In this document: positions 14-59,138 of the stretch, piece by piece
How the letters are laid out: each line of letters starts with the position of its first letter
How positions within the stretch are numbered: the stretch's first letter is position 1
Assembly (NCBI RefSeq): GCF_030936135.1
Contig: NC_082635.1
Location: 124,001 to 188,000, forward strand
Length of the DNA stretch: 64,000 nt
DNA from: Gavia stellata
Taxonomy: Eukaryota > Chordata > Aves > Gaviiformes > Gaviidae
Direction of reading: 5' to 3'
The notes under the pieces: generated by a model
Seen by the model: the letters and a program-made list of their open reading frames with translations, nothing else
The model's database searches: none
Told to the model about the DNA's origin: nothing
Translations under genes and position numbers: made by a program

Positions 14-3000
14 CCCGAAATAGTTGCGGGGGACGTAGCCCTCGTGGCCGTAGAGGGACCCCCACCACCAGTCGAGCTCCTCCTGGGGCTGGCGGCGCAG
101 GACGGTGACGGGCTCGCCCTCGCGGAAGGACAGCTCGTCCCCGAACTCGGCGCTGTAGTCCCACAGCGCGTACACCACCCCGCTGTTCAGCACCCCCATG
201 CTCTGCTCCACCTCTGCGGGGACGGGGACGTCAGCACCCTGGGTGCCCCCAAACACCCCCACCTCCGTGGCACTGCACCCCCAGCACCCTCTTGCCCTGA
301 ACCCGCCCCCCCCCAGCACCCCGTAACCCACCCAGCACCCACATGGCACTGCACCCCTCACACCCCATCGCCCTGAGACCCCCCCAGCACCCCGTAACCC
401 CCCCAGCACCCACATGGCACTGCACCCTTCGCACCCCATCACCCTGAGACCCCCCCAGCACCCCGTAACCCACCCAGCACCGACATGGCACTGCACCCCT
501 CACACCCCATTGCCGAGACCCGCCCCAGCACCCCGTAACCCCCCCAGCACCCACATGGCACTGCACCCTTCTCACCCCATCGCCCTGAGACCCCCCCAGC
601 ACCCCGTAACGCACCCACATAGCACTGTACCCTTTGCACCCCATTGCCGAGACCCGCCCCAGCACCCTGTAACCCCCCCAGCACCCACATGGCACTGCAC
701 CCTTCGCACCCCATCGCCCTGAGACCCCCCCAGCACGCCGTAACCCACCCAGCACCCACATGGCACTGCACCCCTCACACCCCATTGCCGAGACCCACCC
801 CAGCACCCCGTAACCCCCCCAGCACCCACATGGCACTGCACCCTTCGCACCCCATCGCCCTGAGACCCCCCCAGCACCCCGAACCCCCCCCAGCACCGAC
901 ATGGCACTGCACCCTTCTCACCCCATCGCCCTGAGACCCCCCCAGCACCCCGTAACCCACCCAGCACCCACATGGCACTGCACCCTTCGCACCCCATCAC
1001 CCTGAGACCCCCCCAGCACCCCGTAACCCACCCAGCACCGACATGGCACTGCACCCCTCACACCCCATTGCCGAGACCCGCCCCAGCACCCCGTAACCCC
1101 CCCAGCACCCACATGGCACTGCACCCTTCTCACCCCATCGCCCTGAGACCCCCCCAGCACCCCGTAACGCACCCACATAGCACTGTACCCTTTGCACCCC
1201 ATTGCCGAGACCCGCCCCAGCACCCTGTAACCCCCCCAGCACCCACATGGCACTGCACCCCTCACACCCCATCGCCCTGAGACCCCCCCAGCACCCCGTA
1301 ACCCCCCCAGCACCCACATGGCACTGCACCCTTCGCACCCCATCACCCTGAGACCCCCCCAGCACCCCGTAACCCACCCAGCACCGACATGGCACTGCAC
1401 CCCTCACACCCCATTGCCGAGACCCGCCCCAGCACCCCGTAACCCCCCCAGCACCCACATGGCACTGCACCCTTCTCACCCCATCGCCCTGAGACCCCCC
1501 CAGCACCCCGTAACGCACCCACATAGCACTGTACCCTTTGCACCCCATTGCCGAGACCCGCCCCAGCACCCTGTAACCCCCCCAGCACCCACATGGCACT
1601 GCACCCTTCGCACCCCATCGCCCTGAGACCCCCCCAGCACCCCGTAACCCACCCAGCACCCACATGGCACTGCACCCTTCTCACCCCATCGCCCTGAGAC
1701 CCCCCCAGCACCCTGTAACCCCCCCAGCACCCCCATAGCACTGCACCCTGGCACCCAATTGCCCCCCAGCACCCCCCCAGCACCCCGTACCCCCCCAGCA
1801 CCCCCATAGCACTGCACTCCTGGCACCCCCCTGCCCTGAACCCATACCCGGTCCTGGTATCCCCTCCCAGTATCTGTACCCTTCCCAGTATGCCTTCCCA
1901 GTATCCATATCCCCCCCATATCTCCTCTCAGTACCCCCTCCCAGTGTCCATGCCACCCAGTACCCCCTCCCAGTATCCATACCACCCCAGTACCCCTTCC
2001 CAGTACTTGTACACCCCCAGTACTCTCTCACAGTACCCCTACTTGACCAGTACCTCCTCCCAGTACCCATACCCTCCCAGTATCCCCTCCCAGTACCCAC
2101 AGAACCCCAATACTCCCTCTCAGTATCCATATACCCCCAATAACCCCTCCCAGTACCCCCTCCCAGTACCCACATCCTCCTATACTCCCTCCCAGTACCC
2201 ATATTCCCCTGATACCTGCTCCCAGTACCTATATTCCTCCTCCCAGTACCTATATCCCTTCTCCCAGTACCCATAAAACCCCAGTACCTCCCTCCCAGTA
2301 CCCATAACCTGCCCAGTACCCCCTCCCAGGACCCATAGAAGCCCAGTACCACCATCCCAGTACCCATAACCTGCCCAGTACCCCCTCCCAGTACCCATAT
2401 TCCCCCAATACCCTCTCCCAGTACCTATATGCCTACTCCCAGTACCCATACAAGCCCAGTACCTCCCTCCCAGTACTCATAACCTGCCCAGTACCCCCTC
2501 CCAGTACCTATAAAACCCCAGTACCTCCCTCCCAGTACCCATAACCTGCCCAGTACCCCCTCCCAGGACCCATAGAAGCCCAGTACCACCATCCCAGTAC
2601 TCCTAACCTGCCCAGTACCCCCTCCCCGTACCCATACCCTGCCCAGTACCGTCTCCCAGTACCTATATCCCTCCTCCCAGTACCCATAGAACCCCAGTAC
2701 CCCCTCCCAGTACCCATATTCCCCCAATACCCTCTCCCAGTACCTATATGCCTACTCCCAGTACCCATACAAGCCCAGTACCTCCCTCCCAGTACTCATA
2801 ACCTGCCCAGTACCCCCTCCCAGTACCCACAGAACCCCAGTACCCCCATCCCAGTACCCATAACCTGCCCAGTACCCCCTCCCAGTACCCATATTCCCCC
2901 GATACCCTCTCCCAGTACCTATATACCCCCTCCAAGTACCCATAGAACCCCAGTACCTCCCTCCCCGTACCCATAACCTACGCAGTACCCTCTCCCAGTA

Positions 3001-6000
3001 CCGATATTCCCCCAATACCCTCTCCCAGTACCTATATCCCTCCTTCCAGTAACCACAGAAGCCCAGTACCCCCTTCCCAGTACCCATAACCTGCCCAGTA
3101 CCCATAGAACCCCAGTACCTCCCTCCCAGTACCCATAACCTGCCCAGTATCCCCTCCCAGTACCCTTATTCCCCCGAAACCCCCTCCCAGTACCCATATC
3201 CCTACTCCCAGTACCCACAGAACCCCAGTACCTCCCTCCCAGTACTCATAACCTGCCCAGTACCCCCTCCCAGTACCCACAGAACCCCAGTACCCCCATC
3301 CCAGTACCCATAACCTGCCCAGTACCCCCTCCCAGTACCCTTATTCCCCCGAAACCCTCTCCCAGTACCCGTATCCCTCCTCCCAGTACCATCCCACCCC
3401 AGTAACCCTACCTAGTACCCGTGCCCCACCCCATTACCCATCCACTCCCAGTTCTCCCAGTGCTCCCAGTGCCCCGGTACCGGTGAGGTAGTTGTAGCAG
3501 TCGGCGTAGCCCTCCCGGTACGGGTCGCACTTCTCCACGGCCAGGCTGCCGTCGCTGGTGGTGGTGGCGAAGATGGCGGCGCCGTGGCGCACCAGGGCCA
3601 CGCACACCCCCGTGTCGTTGCAGGAGGCGGCGCAGTGAAGCGGCGTCCTGGCACCGTGGGGATGGGGGGAATTTGGGGTACGGGGGCGGAGGGTGGGCAC
3701 CCCTAGGACCCCACCCACCCACCCCGGTGTCCCGGGGATGAGGGACCCCCCGTGCCCGTCCCCGTCCCACCCCATCCACGGTCACCGAGGGCTGTCGGGG
3801 GGTTATTGGGGTCCCCGCTCACTGGAGGCTGACGGGGATTATTGGGGTCCCCGTCCCCAGTGGTGCCGGGTTGGGGTCCCCGTCCCTGTCCCTGCTCAGC
3901 CGGGGTTGTTGGGGGGGTGACTGGGGTGCCTGTCCCCCTCTGTCCCCATCCCCGATCACCCCAGGCTCGGAGGGGGGTTCTTGGGGTCCCCATCCCTGTT
4001 CCCCGTGGCTGTGGGGGTCCTTGGGGTGCCCGTCCCCATCCCCTCTGGCTCTGGGGGTCTGGGGGTCCCAGATGTCCCCACTCCTCTGTGTCCCTGGGGT
4101 CCTCGGGCCCCACCCCACGTCCCACCAGCCGTGGCTGTGGGGTCCCCCGTCCCCTCAGCCCCATGTCAGTGGGTCCCCGTCCCACCAGCCGTGGCTGTGG
4201 GGTCCCCTGTCACCCCAGCCCCGTGTCAGTGGGTCCCCGTCCCACCAGCCGTGGCTGTGGGGTCCCCCGTCCCCCCAGCCCCATGTCAGTGGGTCCCTGT
4301 CCCACCAGCCGTGGCTGTGGGGTCCCCCGTCCCCTCAGGTCTGTGTCAGTGGGTCCCCGTCCCACCAGCCGTGGCTGTGGGGTCCCCCGTCCCCCCAGCC
4401 CCACGTAAGTGGGTCCCCCGTCCCACCAGCCGTGGCTGTGGGGTCCCCCATCCCCTCAGCCCCATGTCAGTGGGTCCCCGTCCCACCAGCCGTGGCTGTG
4501 GGGTCCCCCGTCCCCCCAGCCCCACGTAAGTGGGTCCCCGTCCCACCAGCCGTGGCTGTGGGGTCCCCCATCCCCTCAGCCCCATGTCAGTAGGTCCCCG
4601 TCCCACCAGCCGTGGCTGTGGGGTCCCCTGTCACCTCAGCCCCATGTCAGTGGGTCCCCGTCCCACCAGCCATGGCTGTGGGGTGCCCCGTCCCCCCAGC
4701 CCCATGTCAGTGGGTCCCCGTCCCACCAGCCGTGGCTGTGGGGTCCCCCGTCCCCCCAGCCCCATGTCAGTGGGTCCCCGTCCCCGTCCCACCAGCCGTG
4801 GCTGTGGGGTCCCCCGTCCCCCCAGCCCCATGTCAGTGGGTCCCCGTCCCACCAGCCATGGCTGTGGGGTGCCCCGTCCCCCCAGCCCCATGTCAGTGGG
4901 TCCCCGTCCCCGTCCCACCAGCCGTGGCTGTCGGGGGAGTTGACGTTGGCCCCGCTGGCGATGAGGAAGTCGACGATGCTGTAGTTGGCGCCGCAGATGG
5001 CGTTGTGCAGCGCCGTGATGCCCTCGTCATTGGGCTGGCTGGGGTCGTTCAGCTGGGGACACGCACGCCTGTCCCCACACTGCCACCCTCTGCCACCCCC
5101 ACTGCCACTCCCCAGCACCCCGCTGCCACCCCCAGCCCCTGCCACCCCTGAGCACCAGGCAAATAGCTCTCCCTGCCACCCTGTCCCCAACACCCTGTCC
5201 CCACTGTCCCCCAGCCCTCGCCACCCCACCCCTTGTCCCTGTCACTCTGTCCCCACTGTCCCCCAGCCCTCGCCACCCACCCCTTCTCCCTGCCACCCCC
5301 GTCCCCACTGTCCCCCAGCCCTCGCCACCCCACCCCTGTCCCTGCCACCCCGTCCCCACTGTCCCCCTGCCCTCGCCACCCCACCCCTGTCCCTGCCATC
5401 CTGTCCCCACTGTCCCCCAGCCCTCGCCACCCACCCCTTGTCCCTGTCACCCTGTCCCCACTGTCCCCCAGCCCTCGCCACCCACCCCTTCTCCCTGTCA
5501 CCCTGTCCCACTGTCCCCCAGCCCTCGCCACCCCACCCCTTCTCCCTGTCACCCTGTCCCCACTGTCCCCCAGCCTTCACCACCCACCCCTTGTCCCTGC
5601 CATCCTGTCCCCACTGTCCCCCTGCCTTCACCACCCACCCCTTCTCCCTGTCACCCTGTCCCACTGTCCCCCAGCCTTCACCACCCACCCCTTGTCCCTG
5701 TCACCCTGTCCCCACTGTCCCCCAGCCCTTGACACCCACCCCTTGTCCCTGCCACCCTGTCCCCACTGTCCCCCTGCCCTCGCCACCCACCCCTTGTCCC
5801 TGCCACCCTGTCCCACTGTCCCCCAGCCCTCGCCACCCACCCCTTCTCCCTGTCACCCTGTCCCCTGTCCCCTGTCCCCTGTCCCACCTCAGCCACCGCC
5901 TGCTGCACCACGTCCAGCTCCCCGGTCAGGGCCGCATCCAGCAGCAGCACCAGGGGGTTGAGGCGCACGCGGGCCCCGGGGCGCCTACGGGGTGAGGAGG

Positions 6001-9000
6001 GGTCCCGCAGGGCCGAGCGCCGTTCCTGCAGCAGCCGGGGGGTCAAGGGGAGGCCGGGGGACACCGTGGGGGCACCCGACGGTGGACGGCACCCAGGGGA
6101 CCCTGGGAACACTTGCCAGGGCACCCGGCGCAGTGCAGCACCCTGGTGACCTTGGGGACATCTGGGGCACCCGTTGTTGTATGGCACCTGGGGTACCTTG
6201 AAGACACCTCACGGGGCACCCAGTGCTCTATGGCACCCGGGGAACCTCGGGGACACCTCCTGGGGCACCCAATGCCATGTGGCACCTGGGGGACTTTGAG
6301 GACACTTTCTGGGACTCCCAGTACTACACAGCACCCATGCAATCCTGGGGACACCTCCCAGGGCACCCGGTGCTCTATGGCACCCAGGGGAGCTTGGGGA
6401 CACCTCCCAGGGCACCCAGCGCTCTATGGCACCCAGGGGACCTTGGGGACACCTCCCAGGGCACCCAACACTCTATGGCACCCAGGGGACCTTGGGGACA
6501 CCTCCCAGGGCACCCAGTGCCATGTGGCACCCAGGGGACCTTGGGGACACCTCCCGGCGCACCCAGTGCCATGTGGCACCCAGGGGACCTTGGGGACACC
6601 CCCCGGGGCACCCAGTGCTATGTGGCACCCGGGGGACCTTGGGGACACCTCCCGGGGCACCCAGTGCCATGTGGCACCCAGGGGACCTTGGGGACACCTC
6701 CCGGGGCACCCAGTGCCATGTGGCACCCAGGGGACCTTGGGGACACCTCCCAGGGCACCCAGCACTCTATGGCACCCAGGGGACCTTGGGGACACCTCCC
6801 AGGGCACCCAGCTCTCTTTGGCACCCAAGGGACTTTGGGGTCACCTCCCAGGGCACCCAGTGCCATGTGGCACCCAGGGAACTTTGAGGGCACCGCGTGG
6901 CACCTCGGGGGGTTCCAAGGGACACCAGGCACCGCATGGCACCCTGGGGGGCTCCAAGGGGCACCCGGCACCGCGTAGCACCTCGGGGACAGCAGCCACT
7001 TACCGGGGCGGGTGCGGGGCTGCTGGGGGACTGCGGCGGTGGGCTGTGGCGGGGTGGCCGAGCCTCGGGGGCCGCCGGAGTAGGGGGTGGCAGGTCGGGC
7101 GAGGCACCGGCGTCACCGGGGACCGGGGGCTCGTCGCGGCGGGGCGGGCGATGCAGGAGGCGGGTGATGAGCTGCTGGTACTGGCGGGTGCGGGTGGGTG
7201 GCAGCGCCGGCCCTGGGCACTGCTCCATGGAGCCACGGCGCTTGAGGGGCCGTGGCATCTCGGCCAGCACCCGCGCCACCTCCTCGAACTCGGGGACCCG
7301 CTGGGCCTCGGGGGGCAGGAGGGGCTGCAGCCGTGTGGGGCTGAGCGGCCTCTCCAGCCCCTCTGTCTCCCCACCCTGCAGCAGCCGCTCCAGCTCCGGC
7401 TCTCCCTCCGGCGGGACGGTCTCGGGGGGCACGGGGCGCCCGGATCCTGCCAGGGGGCTGGGGTCAGGGTGCTCCAGCGCCCGAGCACCATGACCCCCTG
7501 CTCCGGGCAGCCAGCACACCAGAGCCCCACGGACCCCCCGCCCCGGGTGGGTCAGCACGCCGGAGCCCCACGGACCCCCCGCCCCGGGTGGGTCATCACA
7601 CCTGAGCCCCACGGACCCCCCGCCCCGGGTGGGTCATCACACCGGAGCCCCACGGACCCCCCGCCCCGAGTGGGTCAGCACACCAGAGCCCCACGGACCC
7701 CCCGCCCCGGGTGGGTCAGCACGCCGGAGCCCCACGGACCCCCCACCCCGAGTGGGTCAGCACACCAGAGCCCCACGGACCCCCCGCCCCGGGTGGGTCA
7801 GCACGCCGGAGCCCCACGGACCCCCCACCCCGAGTGGGTCAGCACGCCGGAGCCCCACGGACCCCCCGCCCCGGGTGGGTCAGCACACTGGAGCCCCACG
7901 GACCCCCCGCCCCGGGTGGGTCATCACGCCGGAGCCCCACAGATGCCCCACCCCAAGTGGGTCAGCACACCTGAGCCCCACGGACCCCCCGCCCTGGGTG
8001 GGTCATCACGCCGGAGCCCCACGGACCCCCCACCCCGAGTGGGTCAGCACGCCGGAGCCCCACGGACCCCCCGCCCCGGGTGGGTCATCACACTGGAGCC
8101 CCACAGACCCCCCGCCCCGAGTGGGTCATCACGCCGGAGCCCCACGGACCCCCCGCCCCGGGTGGGTCATCACACCTGAGCCCCACGGACCCCCCGCCCC
8201 GGGTGGGTCATCACGCCGGAGCCCCACGGACCCCCCGCCCCGAGTGGGTCATCACGCCGGAGCCCCATGGACCCCCCACCCCGAGTGGGTCATCACGCCG
8301 GAGCCCCATGGACCCCCCCAATAATCCCTATGTCTCCCCACCCCACGGCCACCTCACCTTCGCCCCCGCTCAGCGCCGGGGGGGCCTGGGGCAGCGCCGG
8401 GAGCTGGGGCTGTTTTTGGGGTGCGCGGGGGACCAGCGGTAGCCCCCGGGGACCACCGACCCCCCTGCTCCCAAAAAGCGTTTTGCAGTTTGAAGATCAT
8501 GGAGAGGGGCAAAGGTTTGTGACGGGGGGGTCGCCCACCCTGGGGGGGCACGGGGATGCGGGAGACGGGCTGCTGGGAGAAATGCCACCCGCGGGGCAGG
8601 GTGCCGGGACCCGAACGGCGAAAGGGTCCCTCCGCCCGTCGCTCGCCCGCCAACGGGGACACTTTGTAGTTTCGGGGCAGCGTGGCGCTGTGCCCCCCAT
8701 AGGCGCCGTCCTGGGGGGTGAGAATAAAAAGGGGGGGGGGGGGGATCGTGAGAAACAAGGCGTCGAGGAGGGAGCCGAGCCCCCGTGCCCATCTACCCCG
8801 GCGTCAGGCGCCGCTGGAAGGACTCACCTTGCCCTGTCCGCCCGCCCCGTCCAGGCTCGACTCCCTCCAGGGTGCCAGCGCCAACCCCAGGGACGGCCGC
8901 AGCCCCGGCTGCCCCTCGCCGCTGCCTGGGCGGGGGGGGGACACGCCTCAGTGCCACGCCTCAGTGCCACGCCTCGGGCCCCAGCACGCCACGCCCGGCC

Positions 9001-19064: not shown

Positions 19065-19264
19065 NNNNNNNNNNNNNNNNNNNNNNNNNNNNNNNNNNNN
19101 NNNNNNNNNNNNNNNNNNNNNNNNNNNNNNNNNNNNNNNNNNNNNNNNNNNNNNNNNNNNNNNNNNNNNNNNNNNNNNNNNNNNNNNNNNNNNNNNNNNN
19201 NNNNNNNNNNNNNNNNNNNNNNNNNNNNNNNNNNNNNNNNNNNNNNNNNNNNNNNNNNNNNNNN
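19065..19264. other. Assembly gap (200 N)
   Basis: Exactly 200 N, a placeholder length rather than a measured gap. It separates the PPP1R13L block from the YIF1B-PPP1R14A block. Confidence 0.99.
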
Positions 19265-26119: not shown

Positions 26120-29100
26120 TCAGAGGGTGTAGGCGTTGCTCATCAGATATTCCTTGTCGTCCCCAGGGACCTCCATCCCGTTCCCGGCAGCTCCGGTTTT
26201 CTCTCGGCACGTCTTGAGGGTGACGTCAGTCACGTAACCCAACAAAATGGCTGCCAGGATGGCCAGGAGCACCCCCAGTGCCAGCGCTGGGGGGGGGACA
26301 CCCCCAAAAACAAAAAGAGAGGTGACGTTAGGGTGTCACCCACCTCCCCAAGGAGAGGGGGAGCGGAGCCCCGCCGGCGCTTACCTTTGGTAGAGAAGAA
26401 ATCGCCGCGGAAATCGGCGCCGGGTGCCAACCAGTATCTTCTGTGGGGGGGGAAACTGGGGGTGAGATGGGGGAGTGGGGGACACACGGGGATGTCCCCA
26501 AGGTCCCCGGGGGACGGTCCCCTGTCCCTCACCTGGCTTGGGGCCGCAGCGGCTCAGGCATTCCTCTTCCCTCTGGTAGTTGTTCTTATTTCCCCGGCAG
26601 CCGCCGTAGATGAATTGCCGGCAGGTTCGGTTTGCCGGGCTGTAGTACCAGCGTAGGAAGGAGGCGCGGCACGGGCCGGTCACCCGGGGGACAGCGCAGT
26701 ACTCTGGGGGGGGGATTTAGGGGGGGGGACGTTGGGTGTAGATCCCCCCCAAAATTCTCCGGGCGTTGCCCAAGGAAAGGCGGGGTGGGGGGGAAAGGGA
26801 TTCGGCAGCGCCGAGCGGCGCGGGGAGGTTTTACCGTCGTAGGTGGAGTCGGCGTCGGTCTGCTTGGTGCGATGCTCGGGTTTCTTCGGAGCTGGGGAAA
26901 AGGATAAAAGAGAACCCAAAATGATCCGATTTGGTGGGTTATTTTGGGGTGTTTGGTGCTAAAACAATAAAAAAAATCCCCAAAATAACCCGATTTGGTG
27001 GTTATTTGGGGGGTGTTTGACGCCAAAACAATAAAATAAACCCGATTTGGTGGGTTGTCTGGGGGTGTTTGACACCAAAACAATGAAAAAAAAACCCCCA
27101 AATTACCCCCAAATAACCCAATTTTGTGCATTATTTGACACCAAAACATTAAAGAAAAAAAAAATTATCCACCAAATCGGGTTATTTTGGGGTGTTTGAT
27201 GCCAAAATAATGAAAAAACCACCAAAATAGCCCAATTTGGTGGATTATTTGCAAGTGTTTGACACAAAAATGACCCAATTTGGTGGGTTATTTTGGGGTT
27301 TTTGGCACCAAAACAATAAAAAAACCAAAATGACCCGGATTTGGTGGGTTATTTTGGGGTGTTTTGGTACCAAAACAATAAAACAAAACCCAAAAATGAC
27401 ACGATTTGGTGGGCTTTTTTGGGGTGTTTGAACACCAAAATGACCCAATTTGTTGGGGTATTTTGGGGTGTTTGATGCCAAAACAATGAAAAAAACCCCA
27501 AAATAGCCCAATTTGGTGGATTATTTGGGAGTGTTTGACACAAAAATGACTCAATTTGGTGGGGTTATTTTGGGGGTTTTGGCACCAAAACAAGAAAAAA
27601 ACCAAAATGACCCAATTTGATGGGTTATTTGGGGGTGTTTGACACCAAAACAATTTAAAAAAACCCCAACAAATGACCCAATTTGTTGGGTTATTGGGGG
27701 GTTTTGACACCAAAACAATAAAAATTACCCGATCTGGTGGGTTATTTTGGGGTGTTTTGGCACCGAAACTATAAAAAAAAACCCAAATGACACGATTTGG
27801 TGGGCTTTTTGGGGTGTTTGACACCAAAATGACCCAATTTGGTGGGGTTATTTTGGGGTTTTGGCACCAAAACAATAAAAAATTACCTGATCTGGTGGGT
27901 TATTTTGGGGTTTTGGCACCAAAACAATAAAAAAATTACCCGATCTGGTGGGTTATTTTGGGGTTTTGGCACCAAAAACAATAAAAAATTACCCGATCTG
28001 GTGGGTTATTTTGGGGTGTTTTTGGCACCAAAAATAAAAAAAAAAAAAAGACACAATTTGGTGGGTTATTTTGCGGTGTTTGACGCCAAAATGACACAAT
28101 TTGATGGGTTATTTTGGGGTGTTTGATGCCAAAACAATGAAAAAAAACCAAATAACCCACCAAAATTGGGTTATTTCAGGGTGTTTGACATCAAAAACAA
28201 TTTAAAAAAATCTCAAAACAACCCTATTTGGTGGCACGGGACGATCCGGGGATGGGCTCAGTCCCTCCGCCATGACCTTACCCCCCGCCAGGCCGCAGCT
28301 CTCCCGACATTCCCGCTCCGTCGGGAAGTTGTTGGCGTTCCCCGTCGCAGCCCGCCGAAGACGAAGCTCTGGCAGGAGCCGCTGGTGACGTTGAACCCAC
28401 CACCGCGGCATCGAGGCCCCGGCACCGGCCCACCGCCTTCGGCAGCGAGCAGAGCTCTGCCGGGAGGAAAATGAAGAGAGAGACGTTAACCGCCACCACC
28501 GAACCCCGCTTTCCCCCAAATTTGGGGGGGGCAGACGCAACCCGCCCCGGTTGGGAAGGGCTTTATCGGCTAAAAAAGGGGGGTTATCGGCTAAAAAAGG
28601 GGGGTTATCGGCTAAAAAAAGGGGGGTTATCGGCTAAAAAAGGGGGGTTATCGGCTCGGCAGCCCAGCTCCGCGCCGATTCCCGGCACGAGGCAGAGCCC
28701 GGGAGGTGAATTGTCCCCCCCAAAAAACATCCAGCAGCCCCCCCCACCGCCTGTGCTGCTTTCTGGATATCTTTATTATCTGCTGGTTTAATAAATAATA
28801 AACCAAATAATAGTAATAAACCGTCATGACTAAGCCGAATAATAAGAATAAGCCAAATAATAAGAATAAGCCGAATAATAAGAATAAGCCGAATAATAAG
28901 AATAAGCCGAATAATAAGAATAAGCCGAATAATAAGAATAAGCCGAATAATAAGAATAAGCCGAATAATAAGAATAAGCCGAATAATAAGAATAAGCCGA
29001 ATAATAAGAATAGCGAATAATAAGAATAAGCCGAATAATAAGAATAAGCCGAATAAAAAATAAGCGAAAGAAGCCGAATAATAAGAATAAGCCGAATAAT

Positions 29101-32100
29101 AAGAATAAGCCGAATAATAAGAATAAGCCGAATAATAAGAATAAGCCGAATAATAAGAATAAGCCGAATAATAAGAATAAGCCGAATAAATAAGCGAATA
29201 ATAGAATAAGCCGAATAATAAGAATAAGCCGAATAATAAGAATAAGCCGAATAATAAGAATAAGCCGAATAATAAGAATAAGCCGAATAATAAGAATAAG
29301 CCGAATAATAAGAATAAGCCGAATAATAAGAATAAGCCGAATAATAAGAATAAGCCGAATAATAAGAATAAGCCGAATAATAAGAATAAGCCGAATAATA
29401 AGAATAAGCCGAATAATAAGAATAAGCCGAATAATAAGAATAAGCCGAATAATAAGAATAAGGCCGAATAATAAGAATAGCCGAATAATAAGAATAAGCC
29501 GAATAATAAGAATAAGCCGAATAATAAGAATAAGCCGAATAATAAGAATAAGCCGAATAATAAGAATAAGCCGAATAATAAGAATAAGCCGAATAATAAG
29601 AATAAGCCGAATAATAAGAATAAGCCGAATAATAAGAATAAGCCGAATAATAAGAATAAGCCGAATAATAAGAATAAGCCGAATAATAAGAATAAGCCGA
29701 ATAATAAGAATAAGCCGAATAATAAGAATAAGCCGAATAATAAGAATAAGCCGAATAATAAGAATAAGCCGAATAATAAGAATAAGCCGATAATAAGAAT
29801 AAGCGAATAATAAGAATAAGCCGAATAATAAGAATAAGCCGAATAATAAGAATAAGCCGAATAATAAGAATAAGCCGACACTAATAAACTGAATTATAAG
29901 AATAAACTGACACTAATAACCCAAATAATAAGAACAAACCAAATAATAATAATAAACCAGCACTAATAAAACAAATAATAAGAATAATAAACTGAATAAT
30001 AAGAATAAACCAACACTAATAAACCAAATAAGAACAAACCAAATAAGAATAAACTGAATAAGAATAAGCCGACACTAATAAACCAAATAATAAGAATAAA
30101 CCCAATAATACTAAATAATAATAATAAACCAAACAATAAGAATAATCTGACACTAATGAACCGAATAATAAGAATAAACTGACACTAATAAACCAAATGA
30201 TAAGAATAAACCAAGTAAGAATAAACTGACATTAATAAACCAAATAAGAATAAACTGAATAACAATAATAATAAACTGGCACTAATAAACTGAAGAATAA
30301 GAAACCGAATAATAAGAATAAACCGACACTAATAAACCGAGTAAGAACAAACCAAATAAGAATAAGCTGACACTAATAAACCAAATAAGAATAAACCTAA
30401 TAATAATAATAATAAACCAAATCATAAGAATAAACCGACATTAATGAACTGAATAAGAATAAACCGAATAATAAGAGTAAACCTAATAGTAATAAACCTA
30501 ATAATAATAAAACCAAAAGAGCCAGAAACTTCCAGTTTTAGACAAAACCGAGCCTAAATCCCCGAATTTGGGCTTTACCGACATCCCCCGTCACAAAAAC
30601 CGACTTCCCGGCGGGCCGGGAGATGGGGGGGGGACCCTCCCCAAACGGGATCACGGGGGTGGGGGTACGGCCCCTGAGAGCCACAGGGAGGTTTGGGGGG
30701 GGCTCTACCTGCTGCCCCCCCCCCCCAAATTAATACCCCTTCCCGGGGTCCTGGTGAGCTTTTGGGGCGGGGGGAAGAGCCGGCGGCACGCGGATTTACC
30801 GGGCCGGCGGCCACGGACGCTTTGGGTGCCGCAAAATTATCCGGCCGGGACCCCGATTTCCAGCTGAAAGTGATGAAATACATAAAAAAAAAAAACCCAA
30901 AGCGCCACATTTTTGGCTTGGGAAGAGAAAATCCCGGCGGGATCGGACTCCAGCAGCCCGAGGGGGGGGCCCTAAATTTCTTCCTCGTTAAGCCGCCGAG
31001 GTAACGAACTGGGTTTTAAAAGTGCAAGTTATTTCCTGTTTACGGAGATTTGAGGGCAGCGACCGAGCGAACTCGCTCCCTCCAGGGCTCCCGGCCGCTC
31101 TCCGGGCTCGGTTGGGATAACCGGGATCCGGATATTTTTTGCTGGGATAAAGAGCCGCTGCTTCATCCCCAGGGAACGGGCCGAATCCTGTGACCGCAGG
31201 GGGGGCTGAATTTGCCCTCCCCTATGTTTTGGGGTGCTTTGAACCCCCCCCCAATAAAACCACCCCAAAACCGGCGTCGCGGAGGGCTGGATTTCCTGTC
31301 GACGAGGAGGAAGTTTGGAGGTTTGGGTTTAAAAATGACAAAAAAAGGGAACAGAGGCTCTTGCTGGAGAAGCGGCGGCGGTGCCGCTCCCCACCGGGAC
31401 CAGAGACCCCCCGCAAAGGAATGACCCCACCCCCCCACCCCCGAGTCCCCCCCCAGGGACCTGGGGTCACTCCCTAAGGCCGTGACTCCGCTCAGACCTT
31501 TCCCTAAGGTCATGGCCCCCCCTCAGCCCCCCAAAAGGCCACGACCCCACACAACCTCCCCCCCAGACCGGTTCTGAGACCCTCCCTGACGCTGTGACCC
31601 CAAGGGACCCCCCCCCCAGGCACCCAGGGTCACCCCAAGCCCACGACCCCCCTCAGACTCTCCTTAGGCCTTCCCCCCTAAAGGTCACAACCCTTAGAGA
31701 GGCCCCCCCAAACCCACAGCCTGCTCTCCAGGAGCCTTCAGAGCCCCCCCAGAGGCTGTGACCCCCCTCAAACCCTCCCAGAGACACCCCCCAGGAAGGT
31801 CAGGCCCTTAGAGAGGCCCCCAGAGCCCCCCCAGACCCACAGCCTGCTCTCCAGGAGCCTTCAGAGCCCCCCCAAAGGCTGTGACCCCCCTCAAACCATC
31901 CCAGAGACACCCCCCACGAAGCTCAGGCCCTTAGAGAGGCCCCCAGAGCCCCCCCAAACCCACAGCCTGCTCTCCAGGAGCCTTCAGAGCCCCCCCAGAG
32001 GCTGTGACCCCCCTCAAACCCTCCCAGAGACACCCCCCAGGAAGGTCAGGCCCTTAGAGAGGCCCCCAGAGCCCCCCCAAACCCACAGCCTGCTCTCCAG

Positions 32101-42282: not shown

Positions 42283-45200
42283 CTACTGGCAAAAAGGGGA
42301 AGCCGTGGGATCGAAACCCTTAAAGACATCTTTAAGGGAAGCGGCGTCTTGCTGCTCGCCGTCCTGCGCCGGGCTGTTCCCGGCGAAAGGGCTTCCCGAT
42401 CCCGATTTGGCGCTTGGTTTGACCATGCCGTAAACGGGAGGGACCGGGAGGTTGTGTACCCCGGGCTGGGGGGCCGTTTCCTGGGGAGGGGGGACGGCGG
42501 CGACGGCTTTGGGACGAGGCCGGTTATAGCTGTTGTACCTGTCCGTAGCGGATTCGGCGCTCGCTTTCTCCGATTCGGGTTGATCTAACGCCGATCGCCG
42601 GACGAAAAGGGGTTCCTTGGTTTTGCCGGTGGTTTTGCCAGAATCCGAGGATTTGGAGGAGGAGTTGCCTTCGTTAGGAGACTCGGAGGCTTTGCTGCCC
42701 GAGCTCGGAGTCCTGGGATCGTACAGGCTGATGGCGCTCAGCACGCTGCTTTGCCCGCTGCCTTTGCTCAGCCCGCCGGCCGTCAGCAGCCGAGGGTCGT
42801 AGGGAGCGATAGCCGGGGCGGCATCGCCGGCGGACGCAGGGTCTGCGGTTTTAGGGACTCTAGAAACCCCCGTTTCCGCGGATTTTTGTAACCTGGGATC
42901 GGCGGGGGCTTTCCGCATCCGAGGGTCGCTGGGTTTGTCGCTCTGGCTGGAAGACGGGCTGCCGGCGGCATTCACAGTCTTTAATATCCTCGACAGGAGC
43001 TCGAAATCGGGGAGACCGGTGCCGGAAGAGGAACTGGCGTCCCCCGGCGCGGTTCCTCCCCTCTGCCTGGGATCGGAAAGACCCGTTTGGGATCTGTTAA
43101 GACGTGGATCGAGGGTAGGCATGGATTGAAGGGCAGCCGGGACGGGAATAAACTCTTGCTTTGGGATGGGTAACGGAATCAGATCCTCCGGGCTCCACAG
43201 GATCATCCGGGCGAAGTTGGGTTTGTTGAGGACGACGTCCTTCTTGATGTGACTGAACTGCTGCAGCTGGGAGCGGGGATCCCGCAGGGAATGGCCCAGG
43301 AGAGGATCCAGCGGGATGTTGACGGGTTTATCCCGTAAAGCCCTTTCCCCTTCCTCCTCCTCGGGGAGCAGGGGGGGTTTCTGACCGCCGCCGATGCCGG
43401 AATGAGGAGCTTCGGGTTTGGGGGCGGAGGAGGGAATGTGTCGCGCGAGCCTGGGGTCGGTGGGTCCCGAATCCCCTGGGAGAGACGGGACGGAAAGGTC
43501 CGCGTTTCGGGAAAGCCTGGGATCTCGTAAACGCGGATCGGCGGGACGACCGCTCCCTCCTGCTTGGGTTTTTTGCAGGCGAGGGTCGCTCACACCGGAG
43601 GGCGGCCCGATTTCTCCGTGGGAGGGTTGGGCGTGAGGTCTGCCGGAGCTTTGTTGCCTTAGGGTTTTCAATATGGAGGTGACGCTACTTCCACCGTCGT
43701 CTTCATCACTGGAATACCAGTTACCGGTGTCGCCTGGGGGGAAAAAAAAAGAGAAAGCAGCTGATAAAAGGCAATTAAAGCACGGTCGAGCCGTGACGCC
43801 GATGAGGAGGTCCCCAAAACGCGTCCCCTCTCCCCTCTCGACTCAACGCCGCTCGAATTCCCAACCGTCCCTGGGTTTTGCTGGACGGGGGGGCCAGGTG
43901 TGACAGCCTCCGCCTCCCCGGTCTCCTTTTCACACCCCAAATCACCAGAGAGCCGTACGCATCCCTCTCTTCCTCTTCCTCCCATGTGCAGCAGACGCAA
44001 TTTCACCGCGATTTAAGCCAGCGACCCTATCTCCTTCACCTTCTGCCTAGCTGTTCCCATTTCTCCGGCAGACCCGCTCCTCTTCCCTCACCAGCGACGC
44101 GCTCTTTCGACGCTGGGGATTTTCTCCGAGGGGCTCGGCACCCCTCGTTCCCTAAAGAATTCCTCCCCGATACCCCCGTTTCTCCGACGGCCCCCTCTTT
44201 TTTGGAGGTGGTGCCTCTGGGTGGGTAGAAACCGACGGAAATCCAAGTTATCCCCCCCCCGACGCCTGCGGCTTTGAAGGGAAAACGTGTTTTGCCACTT
44301 GCCTTCCTCATTTTCGCGTTCCTGCTTATTGCTCTCGGCTAGTCTCCGAGCTCTCTCCTCTTCCTCTTGCTGCTTCTGCTGGATTCTCAAGTAAAGCGCT
44401 CTTTGCGCCGACGGCATGAAATCGGGAATGCTGCCCGGCGGTTTCGGTAAGCCGGGTGGGCCTCCTTCGCACAAAGCATCGTGATCCAAGGACGGATCAG
44501 GGAACATGTGCTCTCCCGGCGGCCCTTCCATGTCCTCGTAACCACCGTAGTCTTCTGCCGAGGAAAGATCATCACGGGTTAAAAGAAAATCTCAAAGCTG
44601 CGAAAAACCACCCAATTTTTGCCCCTCTCGGCCTTCCGCTGTGCACGGGCATCCCGGGAACAACCCATCTCCGAGCTGGCACGTCCGGCGAAGCACCTAA
44701 AGAGCCAATTCCGGCAGATCCTCGGGACGTACCTGGGTCTCCCATCATGCTGTGATCCATCTCCATCCCTTCTTGCTGCTGGTAGAAATTGTCATAGAAA
44801 CCTTGTGCCGGCGGGCCGGGCGGCATCATGCCGGAATGGGGGGAATCATCCGGTCCGTAGGGCATCATGGGGGGTCCGGGACCCATGGGAGGGCCGGGAT
44901 TCATTCCCGGACCCATCGGCATGTCTGGATGCATGTCCGGGTGCATATCTGGGTGCATGTCAGGGTGCATGTCTGGGTGCATGTCCGGGTGCATGTCCGG
45001 GTGCATATCGGGGTGCATGTCGGGGTGCATGGGTCCAGGCATTGGTCCTGGGGGTCCCCCTGGCCCGGGGAACCTGGGGGGAGGCGGGCCTGGGTGCCTG
45101 GAAGGGAAAATAAAAGAAAATCTGCTTTAACACGCTTGCGGAGGGACGGACCCAGGGCTCTCCGAGCAGCAGCACCTGCGCCGGACCCAAAACGGGAGAG

Positions 45201-48200
45201 AAACCTCTTTTCTACGCGCGCGCGCCCACCGTCAGCGGCTGCGTCAGGGCAGAGCTCCTCGTTCGACACAAAAATCTGCCGTCCCCGTCCCTCTCCCCGC
45301 TACCTGGAGACGGTGACACCCACCTCACGCCCAGCTTCTCCGCCAGCTGCCCGGTCGGCCGCACGACGATCTCAAAGAGCGAGGGGATCTTCTTGTACAT
45401 GTCCTGTTGTTGCTGCAGCTGCTGCGGCGACAGAGGCTCGTGCATCGGCGGCGGCATCTGCGGCCCCGGCGGTGGAAGCGGTGGCGGCGGAGGGGGAGGA
45501 GGGCCTCCGGGCATCGGTCTCCCGTTGGGAGACGTTGGAGCCGGTGGTCCGGGAGGGCGAGGAGGTGTGGGCAGCAAGCCGACCCCGGGGGGTGGTTTGG
45601 GGAGAGGATTGATGCCCTGTTTCTTTAGTTCTTCGACTTCTTTCTCATCCTCCGCGCCCGCTTCTGCATCATCCGCCAGCATCTGAGAAGATAAAGGAGT
45701 AAGAACAGATCCGCGGAGCTGGCCGGTCGATCTGACACGCTCCAGAAAAACCTCTCCCTCCCTTTCCACCTGCAGGATCAACTTCCACGGAAGAAAAACG
45801 GAGGGTGAACCTGCGTTAACGCCGCCCCGTACCTTGTCCAGAAGCTCCCGCGTCTCCTCTGTGAGCGGATCATGGGAAAACATGCAGTCATCCCCGTTGA
45901 TACAGTTGCCCGTGGTGTGGAACAGCTTGCAAGGGAAGTCCCGTATCATTTTATTAAGGAGAATAAACCCCAACAGGGAGTTATTCCTACAGCCAGAGAG
46001 GCTACAGATGCTGCTCGCTTTGAAACGCGGCTCTCAACGCGGAGGATTTTTGCGGTCGCGACACTGATACGAAACTACCGTTGCCAGAAACACCCCGCTT
46101 TCCTTTCCGCCCCGTTTTCCTGCAGGCGCAGCGGCCACAAACCTCATTTCTTCAACAGGAAAGGTGAGGCTAAGAGGGAACCGGGAGGGCTGTCTGCGGC
46201 CCCGGCTGTCAGCGGAGGATGTGTTACTCAGGAATGGTCTTTTTTTTCCCCCCTCGACACCCCACGTGCATCGACTGCAGGGTAAACGAGACTGATTTGA
46301 GGCTAGCTTAACGGAACTGTAAAACCCAAAAGGATATCATGCATGTAAGGGCAGTTTTCAGCCCTGGCGCAGTAGCCGGTGATGTAGAACTTGCACAGTT
46401 CCCGTTTCTTTGGTAGTTCGATGTCATGACTGAAGTTGCAGTGGTCGCCCTGTTCGGAAACAACACGACAGCGCGTTAGCAGGTGGAAGCGCCGACACGT
46501 TTGCCAGCAGCCCAGAACACAGCTAGGAGGGACAGGGAGATAGGTACAATTATGGAACGCTCTTTATAGGCACGAATCTCTCCCTGAAATCGGTTAAAAC
46601 CTGGACCTGAGGCTTCAGTGACGGTTCCGTGCGCGTATAAAGAGATCTATGGAAATACTCTTGAATTATTCCCTTACCCAGGTACATCTGCCTTCCACAA
46701 AGTATTTGCAGATCACTTTCCCTTTCTTATCCGACTGCTGGTGGGGTTTGTCGTGGTCGTTCCGCCGGTAATTTCCACCACCTCCTCCATCCTATCGGAA
46801 GCACGCAATATTAGTTGGCAAAGAATTTGAAATACAAAGCAACAGATCACTCGAGAGAAACTAAAACTTCCTGAGCAGCCATCTCCGAGAGGGAAAACCA
46901 CCGAGGTTTGGGATGAAAAAGGGAGGTGAAGACGAGCGCGTTGAGCCCAGCAGGCTCCTGAGTACGGCTTGAGGGACCTGTCAGTGGATCGGAATCCAGA
47001 ACATCCGTCCCCTTCAGAGACGGGACAACTTTTGTGCATCTTGGGGAAGATCTGTTTGGTTTTTTCGCTCCTGCGAAGACTTTCTTTGAAGCCTGACTCG
47101 ATTTACAGAGGGGGATGGGGGAAAGAGCGGGTATCCAGCACTGCAGAGGGCCATTAGAAAACAAAAGAGCTACTTACTCCCATGTCCTCATCGTAGTAAT
47201 CGTCGTCTTCGTTCATTCCACCACCTTTCATCCCACTTCTGTTTCCACCTCTGCCCCGTCCTCTGCCCATTCCTTTATTTCCTCTTCCTCTGGGGCCACG
47301 ACCACGTCCTCGATTTAAACCTGAAATACATCCCCCCCTCGTTTCTAATTTCTCTGCTTCCAAAAAATGTGTGAGAAAGCAGAAAGCAGGGACCGTCCGG
47401 GCACAACTTGTCAACCCACTCACCCCGTCCACGATTCTCCTTACTCCTGCGGTACTGATTCAGCTCTTTAAAGTAGTCATCGTACTCGTCATCGCCCATG
47501 GGCTCCTCGTTATCGCAGTACTGCAAACGAGAAAGATCGCGGCCTTTAGCGAGGGGGGATGAAGGGCAGACCATTCCCCCTCAAACGCAGGCGGCCCGAT
47601 CATGAAAAAGAATATTCTCTCGCCTCCGTGGTTCCCCGGGAGCAGGTCAGAGACTCGGCACTTACTTCCATCTCTTCGTCATACATTTCCTCGTCTTCCT
47701 CGGGGTGGTCGCCTCTGCCTCGCCCTCGGTTCCCTCGGCCCATGCCTCGGCCTCCTCTCATTCCCCCTCTGCCACCTCGCCCTCGGTACCCTCGGCCTCG
47801 GCCACGGCCGCCTGGCGAAGCAAAGGGATGGCGTCAGCTTTGTGCTGTGTTTCACCCCTCAGGTAAGTTGAAACAGCACAACAATACGCCAGACAAGGGA
47901 AAATAAATAATAACCTTTCAGTACGGGATTACCAGCATCTTAAAAACGTGTTTCTAAGTCAATCAGTTTTTAAGGTGCTCAAAGAATGGATTTTTCAGAA
48001 GCCAAATGAAAAAAAACCAACACCCTGTGACCACGTCAGCCGCTGCACTGGTAACGCAAATCTGTGTACTCCAGAAGTGATGATATCAGACTTGTTACGC
48101 TTTCCATCGACTTAATTTTCCTTTCAAATAAAGGTTTTGCTTTATTTTATCCATTTTCAACCACTTCCGTGCTTTTAAAACCCTCTAGGCTAGCAAGAAT

Positions 48201-51200
48201 AATGCTTATTTAAAACAAATCACCCACAGGGATCTGAACTTTCCCCTCGGAGTGGAAAACACGAAAACCCACTTTTCTCTGTCACAAACGAACACCGATG
48301 AGTGATTTAGGCCATTGCGGCTGGCTCTCCGCAGGCAAGGCTTTACGCAGGCAGGGCAGTTCACCTTCATGAAGCTTCCTACGTGCGTCGGGCCTTATTT
48401 GGCCACAGATCAGCTAAACGAGCTGCAGGTAACGAATGTCAGAGATAGGGCGAAAAAAGGAACATTTAAGACGTACCTCGCCCCCGGTGAGAGCCTTCCT
48501 TCGCTCTCCGGTATTGATTTAGCTCTTTCGCAAAGTCATCGTAATCTTCCTTCCCTATATCTTCATCGTCTTCCCCCTCGTACTGACCGTACTCCTCATT
48601 CTCGTAGTCCTCGTACATGCCGTAATTCTTGCTCTCCATTTTAGAGTAGCTCTTCTTTGGCATGGGAGCGCTGTGAGAGGACGGATACTGCTGGTGGGAC
48701 TTTGGGAAAGGCGGAGAGGTTAGCGATGAAGGAATGGAATGTATCAAGCCTAATATCGTGACTTAATTTTTAAAAATCATTAAAAAAAACCCCCCTAAAT
48801 AACAGCTAGGTGAAAAATAAACAGGCTAAAGGACCAGAGCCGAAGCGCGTGGCCCGTAGATGGAGCTAGATGGGCACCTGCGCTCAAACCCTGCAGCGGC
48901 TCTGAACGGGAGAGCAGCTTCCCCTTCCCTGTCCGCTGGTGGGTACTTACGGAAGAGTAGGGAGGGCTGTATTCCCTGTATTTTCTGTGTCCCTTTTCAC
49001 CAGGACTGAAGTCCGAGTCCTCGCTGTACTCAGAGAAGTCATCACTGGAAGAAGCGTGGCGCTGCAAGGCACGGAAAACAGGCGGTGCAATTTTATTACA
49101 GGCCAGCTCTGACTCCGGCACTGCAGCCAGGCCTCCGGCCTTTCTATACAACACAGCTAAGTCTCCCTTTGTCGTCTTTTTTTTTTAAGGAAACTCAAAT
49201 TTTGCTTAACAAAATCTTCACAGGGTTCACCGAATTACAAACTGGAAGCCTGTTAGCAGGTTATCTAATGAAGAGAAACACGCTATGCCTTCTGCGCTCC
49301 AGAAATTCTTGGAACTTCATTAACAAACATCCTTGATTTTGCAAATCCAGCAGTCTGCAATCCCCTTTGAGGTAAATACCTAACCCCAAAGTAATTCCCT
49401 AACTCAAAAGTAATTACCAAAGTAATTCCCTAACTCAAAAACCGTTTTCTTTCCGCTCTGCGTCCCCAGACGGACAGGAGAGTGCTGCAGCATTTTTATC
49501 CTACCTGCAGACCTCGGTGTCCCGCGGCCGTGCTTGCTAGTCGTCAGAGGAGGAAGGCATTAAGGAGCTGAACCCCAAGAAACCCTGCGAGCGCTCCCAC
49601 CTCGCAATTATCGTTAGGCGAAGAGCCTCAAACTACCCGTAATAACAGTAGAGGAGGAATTCCCCGGAGATGGCAGAGGAAGGCAGACCGGAGCTGGGAT
49701 CCCGGAGGACCCGGGAGGCAAAAGCAGCGCGCAGCTCACCTTGTGTTTGGATTTCCTTTTCTTCTTGGATCTCCTCTTCTCTTTCTCTCTCTCTTTCCGA
49801 CGCTTGCGTTTCATCCGTCGATGGGCTTTCTCATCATCTGAATCGCTGTGATGCTTCTCCCCTTTCTCCTTCCGACTCCTCTCTTGAGATTCGGAGGGAT
49901 CTTGCGCCTCCTCCCCTCCGTCATCCTCCAGCTCCCCTTCTTCCAGCTCTCCATCCTCCCTGTAAAGCAGACAGGCATGTTTAATTCCCCTTATTAAAAA
50001 AAAAAAAAGAAAATAAAACCTGCTAACGCCGCTCACCAGCCAGCCAGGCACTTGGCTCCCAAAGCGCTCACGAATTCCTAGTTGCCGTGGTTTTAAATAT
50101 CTGACCGCAAATACCGACTCTGTTCACCTCTGCCACCGAAATCTGCTCAAGCTCTCGCTCAGTCTGGAGTTAAACACGGCGACGAAGCATCTCGCAAACA
50201 ACAAACCGAAGCCACAACGTGACGGCGCTCAACTTTCGTATGAACTCAGTGCAAATGAACTCCAGGAATGGAATGGAAACTGTTGCTTTAATAAAACAGT
50301 CGCTCCACTCCAAGAACTGAACTCGGTGTTTTAATAAAACAATCGGTCCGCTAGAAGACAAGACTGAGTAAATATCACATTGGTTTGCCAAATCTAGAGA
50401 CGTGTGCCCAGTTATTTCCACTTTCTCGTGCTACCATTCATCCACAATTGTGGTTAGCGGAGGTGATAAAGCAAATCGGAAACTTCCTCCAGAGGATTCC
50501 ACAAGCCCCACTCAATTAAATTCAATTAAAAATTACTCAGATAGGGGTTACGAGAAACTTTCTGCAACCTCGTAAGGGATTAAATGTGTAACACGGCAGG
50601 AGTTCAACCAGCTCCCTGGCGTTTTCCCTCTCTCCCAACAAGGTCCCGAATTTGGTGCTGCGTGATTTTAAAACAAGAGTGGGGTCTCCTCCTCCCTTTC
50701 CACTTAAGGTAAGCTATAATTAAAAACATGAACACCGGCTTGTTTATATATACGTCACCGACCTTCACAAACAACAGTTTAGGAGCGCATAGGAGGTGGA
50801 TCTTTGACACGCATCCCTCTGGTTGGGGTTTTTTTGGGGGGCTATGGAAAGACTGACTTCTTTGGCTGCTATAAAGTCTCCTCTTCAGCACTACAATGGG
50901 AACGGCAGCCACGGCGGCGTGCCGTGCCGTGCCCTGCCATGCCCGTGCCGCGCCGCCGTGAAGGCAGCTCGGCTGGAAGAAGGAGCTGCCACCGCTCGGT
51001 GGCTCTCAGGGAAGTGTGGAAGCTGAAATGGGGTTTACGAACGGCATTCGGAAAAAGCTGGGCTGTGTGAACGAGCCGACCTGTTGATAACCTCGGGTTA
51101 CGTGAAAAAAATCCCCAAGAAAAACTGAATTCTTTCCCCAAACACATTAAAAAACCTACAAAAATCAGCATTAACAATCCCCGGGAAGCATCCTGGGGAG

Positions 51201-58320: not shown

Positions 58321-58329
58321 ACTGGACCT

Positions 58330-58487
58330 TTCGTCCGGGCCGTGGTGGTGTTGGAGCGGCGGCGGCGGCCGGGGGAGGCTGCAGCTGCCGCTGTCGTGGT
58401 GGTGGCAGGACGGAGAAGGGGGGGTGGAGTGCGGGCTGGGGGGGGAAGCGGCGGCGGCGGGGGGGACACTCGGCTCTCCACGGCCAT
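58330..58487 (-). other. ZC3H4: Candidate upstream first exon of ZC3H4 (CpG island)
   Basis: A minus-strand ATG at 58487 opens [17 protein letters not shown], similar in composition to the proline-rich human N-terminus. A different frame in the same exon reads LQHHHGPDE and would join the second exon as [11 protein letters not shown], close to human [11 protein letters not shown]. The two frames differ by one C in the run at 58437-58444. The donor is ambiguous (GTCCAG or GTAACC), so the exon is likely but its exact frame is not settled. Confidence 0.5.
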
Positions 58488-58489
58488 GG

Positions 58490-59138
58490 GCAAGAGGGGC
58501 GGGGGGGCGAACAGGGGGGGCACAGTCACTGTACAGCGCGGGGGTCGGCTCGGCACGGCCCGGCCCGGCTTATCCGCCCGCCCGCCCCGCGCTCCACGGG
58601 CAGGCACACAAAATGGCGCCCGCCGGCACGCAGCCGCGCCGAGGCAGCGCCCCGCACGGAGGCCGGAAAAAGCCGAGCTGCGCCGGAAAAAACCGAGCGG
58701 TGACGGAAAGACACGAGCGCCCCCTTCCTCCCTCAGCGACAGGCGACGGAGCTTGCCGAAGGTGAACGGGAGATGGCGGGAACGCCCGAAAAGTGCCGAG
58801 GAGGTGAGGCGCGGACGAGTCCACCTGAGCGGGAGGGGAGGGGGGGGGAGAGCTGCGCAACTGAGCGCTCACGGGGCGGTCCCCAGGCCGAGCGACGCGG
58901 CCGCACGGCCCTGCGCGGGGACGAAACGGCGGAAGAAGCCGCTCCAGGTGGTTGTCCCGTGGGGGAGCGGGTGTGGGGCTGTGGGGGCCCTCCGTGCCGG
59001 GGGGGTGGTTTTCTCCACACACACCCCCCCCGACTCCCGCCGGTGGACGTGGAGCGGTGCCGGGTGCTGCGCGGCGTTCGCGCGGGCCGCCAGGGGGCGC
59101 TGCCCCGGCCGTGAGGCGGCGGCGGCGGCGGCGGCGGG
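58490..59138. promoter_or_regulatory. Bidirectional CpG-island promoter, ZC3H4 (-) / SAE1 (+)
   Basis: About 0.65 kb of CpG-dense unique DNA between head-to-head genes. Visible motifs are an AAAATGGCGCC YY1-type element (58611), an E2F-type TGGCGGGAA (58774-58782) and GC-rich boxes; no TATA. A (GGC)n tract lies at 59115-59136, directly before the SAE1 ATG. Confidence 0.75.

Follow-up and report, generated by a model that had tools for sequence, protein, structure and literature searches.

A tandem array of exon-boundary copies with fourteen identical splice donors at an ankyrin exon of iASPP in Gavia stellata: a probable case of exon stuttering

In chicken dot chromosomes, an intron can hold imperfect tandem copies of the edge of the adjacent exon and its splice donor or acceptor, an arrangement named exon stuttering (Hron et al. 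2026, Genome Biol Evol, PMC12954441). In the accessible text of that paper, 190 of the 236 published introns lie on dot chromosomes, 183 of 192 exon-stuttering introns display strong length variation, and the phenomenon "creates potential alternatively spliced transcripts". The screen described there used as cut-off an exon match of at least 20 nt and at least 42.1 bits, which acts as a noise filter and not as a definition. A second system is the human gene IFI6 (6-16, G1P3), whose minisatellite gives rise to several splice donors (Turri, Cuin and Porter 1995, as cited in PMC4526556); splicing reportedly makes use of two downstream units, resulting in three mRNA species (PMC4526556, accessible part). 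Our literature search found the term "exon stuttering" and its variants in PMC12954441 alone, and found no paper joining PPP1R13L, chicken and "missing genes". PPP1R13L is not named in the main text of PMC12954441, the gene list of which is placed in the supplement.

We investigated an array of about 60-bp units in a stretch of 64,000 nt of the Gavia stellata genome (NC_082635.1, positions 124,001 to 188,000), hereafter the window, to which all positions refer. The host gene of the array is iASPP (PPP1R13L), which is encoded on the minus strand and whose product regulates the tumour suppressor p53. The ankyrin exon and the donor adjoining it at 4918 are located where the initial annotation had placed them (Table 1). 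This exon starts in phase 0 and terminates two bases into a Trp codon (TG/G; here and below the slash marks the splice site), and its junction with the next exon yields the conserved SHGWTPLH. Residues 1-99 of the 100-residue joined peptide match the PDB chains 2vge, 6dcx, 6rz3 and 9gfo (E 1.3e-57 to 1.8e-57), all chains of RelA-associated inhibitor (iASPP) that we take to be human; a lower E was obtained only with the ankyrin-1/2 chain 4rlv, which is scored across several repeats. The residues at the exon end, NSPDSHGW, are identical in the aligned iASPP chains (three of the four). Overall, the joined exons 7446..7004, 6025..5888, 5052..4919, 3647..3481 and 213..14 form one open frame, with the ankyrin and SH3 domains encoded from 6025 onward (Pfam). 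Adding two further upstream exons to the join introduces one stop, because the phases of 8710..8358 and 7446..7004 disagree; this mismatch may be due to an exon border, an indel or a sequence error. An apparent frameshift is also present near 13620 in an N-terminal iASPP coding exon (13679-13586), for which tblastn gives two overlapping pieces in different frames; it may be a sequence error or a polymorphism.

The end of the ankyrin exon and the start of its intron constitute the 26-mer ACAGCCACGGCTG/GTGGGACGGGGAC. Searching the 64-kb window with up to 6 mismatches, we detected 14 copies on the minus strand, one exonic and 13 intronic, and none on the plus strand. About 13 recurrences in the adjoining intron had been reported from the letters of the DNA; the 13 found here all lie within three mismatches (eight exact, three with one mismatch, one with two and one with three). 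Likewise, each unit does carry a copy of the 5′ splice site, since the 9-mer CTG/GTGGGA is intact and common to all 14 donors. In every copy the splice site is inside the copied part and abuts the exon border; the exon tail itself varies in two of the 13 units, where CAT replaces CAC.

Table 1. Features of the iASPP array and its surroundings (positions in the window)
Feature	Position	Strand	Evidence or remark
Ankyrin exon of iASPP/PPP1R13L	4919..5052	-	134 nt; translation, splice signals, PDB match
Exon tail ACAGCCACGGCTG (13 nt)	4919..4931	-	exonic part inside array units
True 5′ splice site CTG/GTGGGA	4917..4918	-	in-frame join to 3647..3481
60-bp tandem array, 13 intronic donor copies	4118..4918	-	26-mer search, repeat extent
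Decoy donors, first intron bases	4852, 4792, 4726, 4666, 4606, 4546, 4486, 4426, 4365, 4305, 4245, 4185, 4125	-	
In-frame readable stretch to decoys 4852, 4792, 4726, 4666	4667..4918	-	+22, +42, +64, +84 residues
First in-frame TGA	4636..4638	-	included by nine more distal decoys
Decayed exon-end copy	3984..4017	-	14/15 exon nt; 5-nt gap removes GT, then donor-side intron sequence; score 35
Decayed copy, 22 exon nt + about 21 intron nt, GT lost	3874..3918	-	score 46, compared with at most 32 in 300 shuffles
Split decayed copy	3752..3804	-	exon AAC-CCCCCGACAGCC (15/16) 3804-3790; donor-side GGTGGGACGGGGACGGG from 3771
Next exon	3481..3647	-	starts G/ACGCCG (TPLHCAAS...); supplies third Trp codon base

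Starting from the true donor, successive donors are spaced by 66, 60, 66, 60, 60, 60, 60, 60, 61, 60, 60, 60 and 60 bp. The units had been described as 60 or 66 bp and always multiples of three, which holds for 12 of the 13 spacings; the exception is the unit of 61 bp (4426 to 4365), which therefore breaks the frame. It differs by a single additional G within a G run, which may be a sequencing error. The homology of the array starts within the exon and stops 8 nt past the last donor copy (4125), where unrelated intron follows. Leaving out the extra 6 bp and 1 bp, pairwise identity among the 12 full intronic units averages 93.7% (86.7-100%). Substitutions relative to the consensus are found in 10 of them, and the same variants reappear at distances of whole units (e.g., 4546 and 4426; 4852 and 4666), as expected from repeat turnover. 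These differences between the units, together with the clean flanks, speak against a copy number inflated by an assembly artefact, for which one could point to the 200-N gap inside the window and to small indels that the gene may have in other places; raw nanopore reads are also reported to confirm such a structure in chicken PHF8 introns (PMC12954441, accessible text). We consider this artefact very unlikely.

The origin of the array was evaluated against shuffled sequences. The junction, taken as 20 nt of exon plus 20 nt of intron, matches the rest of its own intron with a score of 69, compared with a maximum of 38 in 200 dinucleotide shuffles (0/200), and the exon-intron match is unbroken across the splice site over 26 nt. 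On the other hand, the 13-nt exon tail alone, searched by blastn-short with the settings of the published screen, gives 26.3 bits in 11 of the 13 copies and 18.3 in the other two, which does not exceed the best matches in 20 shuffled intron sets (22.3-32.2); the highest real exon-only match (28.2) pairs an unrelated exon of the gene with another intron. The claim of origin is therefore based on the continuity across the splice site and on the repetition, rather than on the exon bases by themselves.

The interval from the array to the acceptor (4117-3648) contains three decayed copies of the exon end, matching 15 to 22 exon nt. In the split copy, the exon piece scores 25 and the donor-side piece 35. 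Using only exon sequence as query in this region, the best single match (25) is reached by 1 of 300 shuffles, a result that we count against the reading, while the top three matches sum to 74, above the maximum of the shuffles (62; 0/300). Furthermore, in 4117-3648 the junction of the ankyrin exon itself scores 46, compared with 16 to 32 for five junctions from elsewhere in the gene; the SH3-labelled junction, which was placed 9 nt off its donor, was left out of these controls. Because the residues at the exon end are identical in the iASPP chains and the three decayed copies match the exon, the exon end is the source, and copying proceeded from exon to intron. The presence of the older copies would therefore mean that the boundary was copied in at least two episodes or in one long continuing episode. 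The extra GACGGG of both 66-bp units is present in the older copies too, so the 66-bp form may be older than the 60-bp one.

The junction score, the conserved exon end and the decayed copies all agree with what the initial annotation had suggested, namely that the array arose by tandem duplication of the exon-intron boundary. Alternatively, the 13 exon-like bases could be a coincidence of G/C-rich sequence, and the exon tail alone does lie inside the shuffled range. Such a coincidence would also have to account for the unbroken 26-nt match, for a junction score reached by none of the 200 shuffles and for the sum of the three downstream copies reached by none of 300; we regard it as extremely improbable.

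Does the same hold for the other introns of the gene? Of the six introns placed by splice signals, five consist of 72-94% tandem repeat and one, of 117 bp, lacks any; the phase mismatch described above concerns one of the six (Ib). The ends of the exons were compared with the introns following the same scheme in seven of eight introns (the 117-bp one being too short), with six queries each, i.e., 42 tests reported as raw shuffle counts. For the last 40 exon nt, the score is reached by 0 of 200 shuffles in the array intron (Ie), and by 152, 9, 135, 19, 122 and 2 in Ib, Ic, Id, If, Iu1 and Iu2, respectively. For the 20+20 junction, the counts are 0 in Ie, 1 in Iu2, 27 in Ib, 28 in If, 36 in Id, 108 in Ic and 126 in Iu1, whose donor is likely, though unproven. 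On the acceptor side, every exon-start query is reached by at least 15 of 200 shuffles in the seven introns. A general rule by which iASPP arrays start from exon ends was thus rejected, as the signal is clear in Ie alone among the seven. In Ic and Id (7003-6026 and 5887-5053), the array family already includes the first 40 bases of the intron (0/200 and 1/200 shuffles) with no clear exon part, which amounts to intronic stuttering near the donor. In Iu2 (11181-8926), the assumed first 40 intron nt match the intron's own array (0/200 shuffles; junction 1/200), which is suggestive of what may be a second exon stutter; this intron was left out of the conclusions because no GT donor can be placed at the assumed start.

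The first 26 kb of the window have a GC content of 61-77% per 2-kb bin, compatible with an avian dot chromosome, where the locus would then be located; the CR1 end motif was absent in a search of the window. The 200-N scaffold gap spans 19065-19264, so the join of the GC-rich part to the following sequence is unproven. Further along, 58 copies of the 18-bp A/T-rich unit TAAGCCGAATAATAAGAA (95% match) form a low-GC island between GC-rich parts (28831-29878). On the minus strand, the frame at 45215-46033 encodes a KIAA1064-like CCCH zinc finger (PF22623, E 1.7e-26), presumably ZC3H4-like; the 14-kb stretch around it (45032-59282) has no TRF arrays of score 100 or more, unlike iASPP.

The consequences of decoy use were predicted from the reading frame. 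The exon frame had been thought to remain open for about five units: it runs through four whole units and meets a TGA within the fifth. Consequently, the expectation that any of the nearest decoys could splice in frame applies to four of the 13, which are predicted to be stop-free, while the other nine would include the TGA; in five of these nine, the 61-bp unit additionally shifts the frame. An open frame is not surprising here, since a given frame is open in 71% of 5000 shuffled units. As TGA occurs in 5 of the 12 intronic units as well, coding selection on the array was rejected.

Donors were scored by a simple matrix of human base frequencies. CTG/GTGGGA scores 1.94, and the six other placed donors of the gene 7.95, 6.72, 6.35, 4.92, 3.14 and -1.69; the true donor is therefore weak, though not the weakest of the gene. 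Two other GT sites in the array intron score slightly above it (2.38 and 2.00). The lowest value belongs to the donor of the following intron (3480-3479, CCG/GTACCG), which is unusually weak; its flanking exons still join in frame. We also considered a hairpin formed by CCCAC and GTGGG that would be confined to the array and hide the decoys. This selector was rejected by the accessibilities calculated with ViennaRNA: at none of three window sizes does the true donor exceed the decoys, and at all three the most distal donor (4125) has the highest value predicted for the 9-mer. Given 14 donors equal in sequence and a structure that does not single out the true one, the winner is not predictable from sequence.

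Because the true donor is weaker than five of the six others, the decoys might compete with it and produce mostly stop-containing messages, in which case longer alleles would lower iASPP output and the array would represent a load or a damper. The stop added by nine of the 13 decoys and the accessibility of the distal donor are in line with this possibility. However, G runs play a role in strengthening splice donors, and the GGG runs of the array (about 5 per 60 nt) may equally strengthen the true donor; moreover, the coding frame is intact over five exons. We consider this explanation unlikely.

As to the protein, the insert would fall where an ankyrin repeat starts, separating position 2 of the Pfam Ank profile from position 3, and the final insert residues "HG" recreate the repeat start. 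With the +22 insert, the score of Ank (PF00023) is 54.5 bits compared with 55.0 without it, and that of Ank_2 passes from 56.6 to 56.1, whereas the two-repeat models drop from 45.6 to 34.8 (Ank_4) and from 45.1 to 37.1 bits (Ank_5). By these models, the insert is predicted to keep single repeats and not the spacing between neighbours. The insert itself has no Pfam match at E <=0.1. In the p53-iASPP structure, the ankyrin stack engages through its flat face (PMC6717262, accessible part), and the insert could therefore matter for p53; the ankyrin repeats do not contribute in the iASPP crystal with a p63 linker peptide (PMC11704248, accessible part).

These data bear on the possibility that the array is a used module, with appreciable use of decoys placing 22 to 84 Trp/Gly/Asp-rich residues, variable between alleles, between two ankyrin repeats. 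The four stop-free decoys, the recreated repeat start and the nearly unchanged Ank and Ank_2 scores are compatible with it, as are the 14 identical donor 9-mers and the fewer variable columns of the 26-mer in the 12 intronic units (2/26 vs 12/34 elsewhere; Fisher p 0.015, split chosen post hoc). The latter difference was not accepted as selection on the donor, since the split is post hoc, the units lack independence and an invariant run as long as the longest one is not unusual (permutation P 0.40). Against a used module stand the fall of Ank_4 and Ank_5, the openness expected by chance with TGA in some units, the 61-bp unit, the stops from the nine distal decoys and an insert resembling no Pfam family at the above threshold. 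Appreciable decoy use thus appears quite improbable, and a functional protein insert possible but unlikely. Equally improbable, taken jointly, is a broader proposal in which the donors of the first four units would be used in some tissues to give allele-length-dependent iASPP isoforms, with a Trp-rich insert of 22, 42, 64 or 84 residues where two repeats of the p53-binding ankyrin stack meet, the minisatellite would be a heritable, splice-selectable tuner of a p53 regulator, and short-exon-tail stutters as a class, which exon-only screens miss, would rank among the main natural sources of bird exons with several donors.

Exon stuttering at the iASPP ankyrin exon, followed by expansion, homogenisation and partial decay, is in our opinion the probable explanation of the array, and we hold it with good confidence. 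At least the last 13 exon bases, together with about 47 bases of the adjoining intron, would have been duplicated in tandem. Repeat turnover, by slippage, unequal exchange or conversion, would have expanded and homogenised the copies and led to their partial decay. The exonic copy would stay fixed because conserved ankyrin residues are encoded there, and the intronic copies would carry the identical weak donor along. Most iASPP messages most likely still derive from the donor at the exon end. Use of decoys would be at most a minor by-product giving the in-frame +22, +42, +64 and +84 isoforms, which we would guess at a few percent or less, and the nine distal decoys would lead to stop-containing messages that are probably degraded. 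We count in favour of exon stuttering that all five longer placed introns of the gene are made largely of tandem repeat. We count against it that the exon part remains below the published 20 nt and 42.1 bits and inside the shuffled range, that the search for the CR1 end motif was negative, and that sequence and predicted structure do not predict dominance of the true donor among 14 equal ones.

A donor repeated identically 14 times at a widely studied gene represents a natural experiment on the choice among equal splice sites, and the decayed layer illustrates that a single exon boundary can leave copies of different ages. Furthermore, stutters with exon tails shorter than 20 nt can carry complete splice sites and would be missed by the published screen; therefore, the published counts of exon-stuttering introns are likely too low. 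Indeed, with 13 nt and 26.3 bits (blastn-short), the iASPP array itself misses the operational cut-off given in the accessible text of PMC12954441.

As in the chicken cases described there, a lateral part of the exon and the splice site are found in imperfect intronic tandem, and the other introns of the gene are also rich in local repeats. The exon itself is unaltered in both; in iASPP, the exons from 7446 on join open and match the iASPP chains. Unlike the chicken cases, as far as the same text describes them, the exon part of the young iASPP array measures 13 nt instead of 20-187 nt, a second, decayed layer of exon ends is present and the in-frame consequence has been worked out. The introns of GC-rich avian genes are likewise made of G/C-rich tandem repeats (Beauclair et al. 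2019, PMC6792250), although exon-end copies, present in iASPP, are not described in the accessible part of that paper. Similarly to IFI6, the boundary repeat units of iASPP each offer a donor, intact in all 14; in IFI6, however, donor use is reported in mRNA (PMC4526556, accessible part), whereas the iASPP decoys are candidate donors predicted from the DNA. The initial annotation had held that a splice-selectable insert of variable length would be novel. The arrangement is in fact already known, having been described for chicken dot chromosomes (PMC12954441) with a human precedent in IFI6 (PMC4526556), both as given in the accessible texts; what is new is the iASPP case, with an exon piece of 13 nt below the reach of the screen and a layered history.
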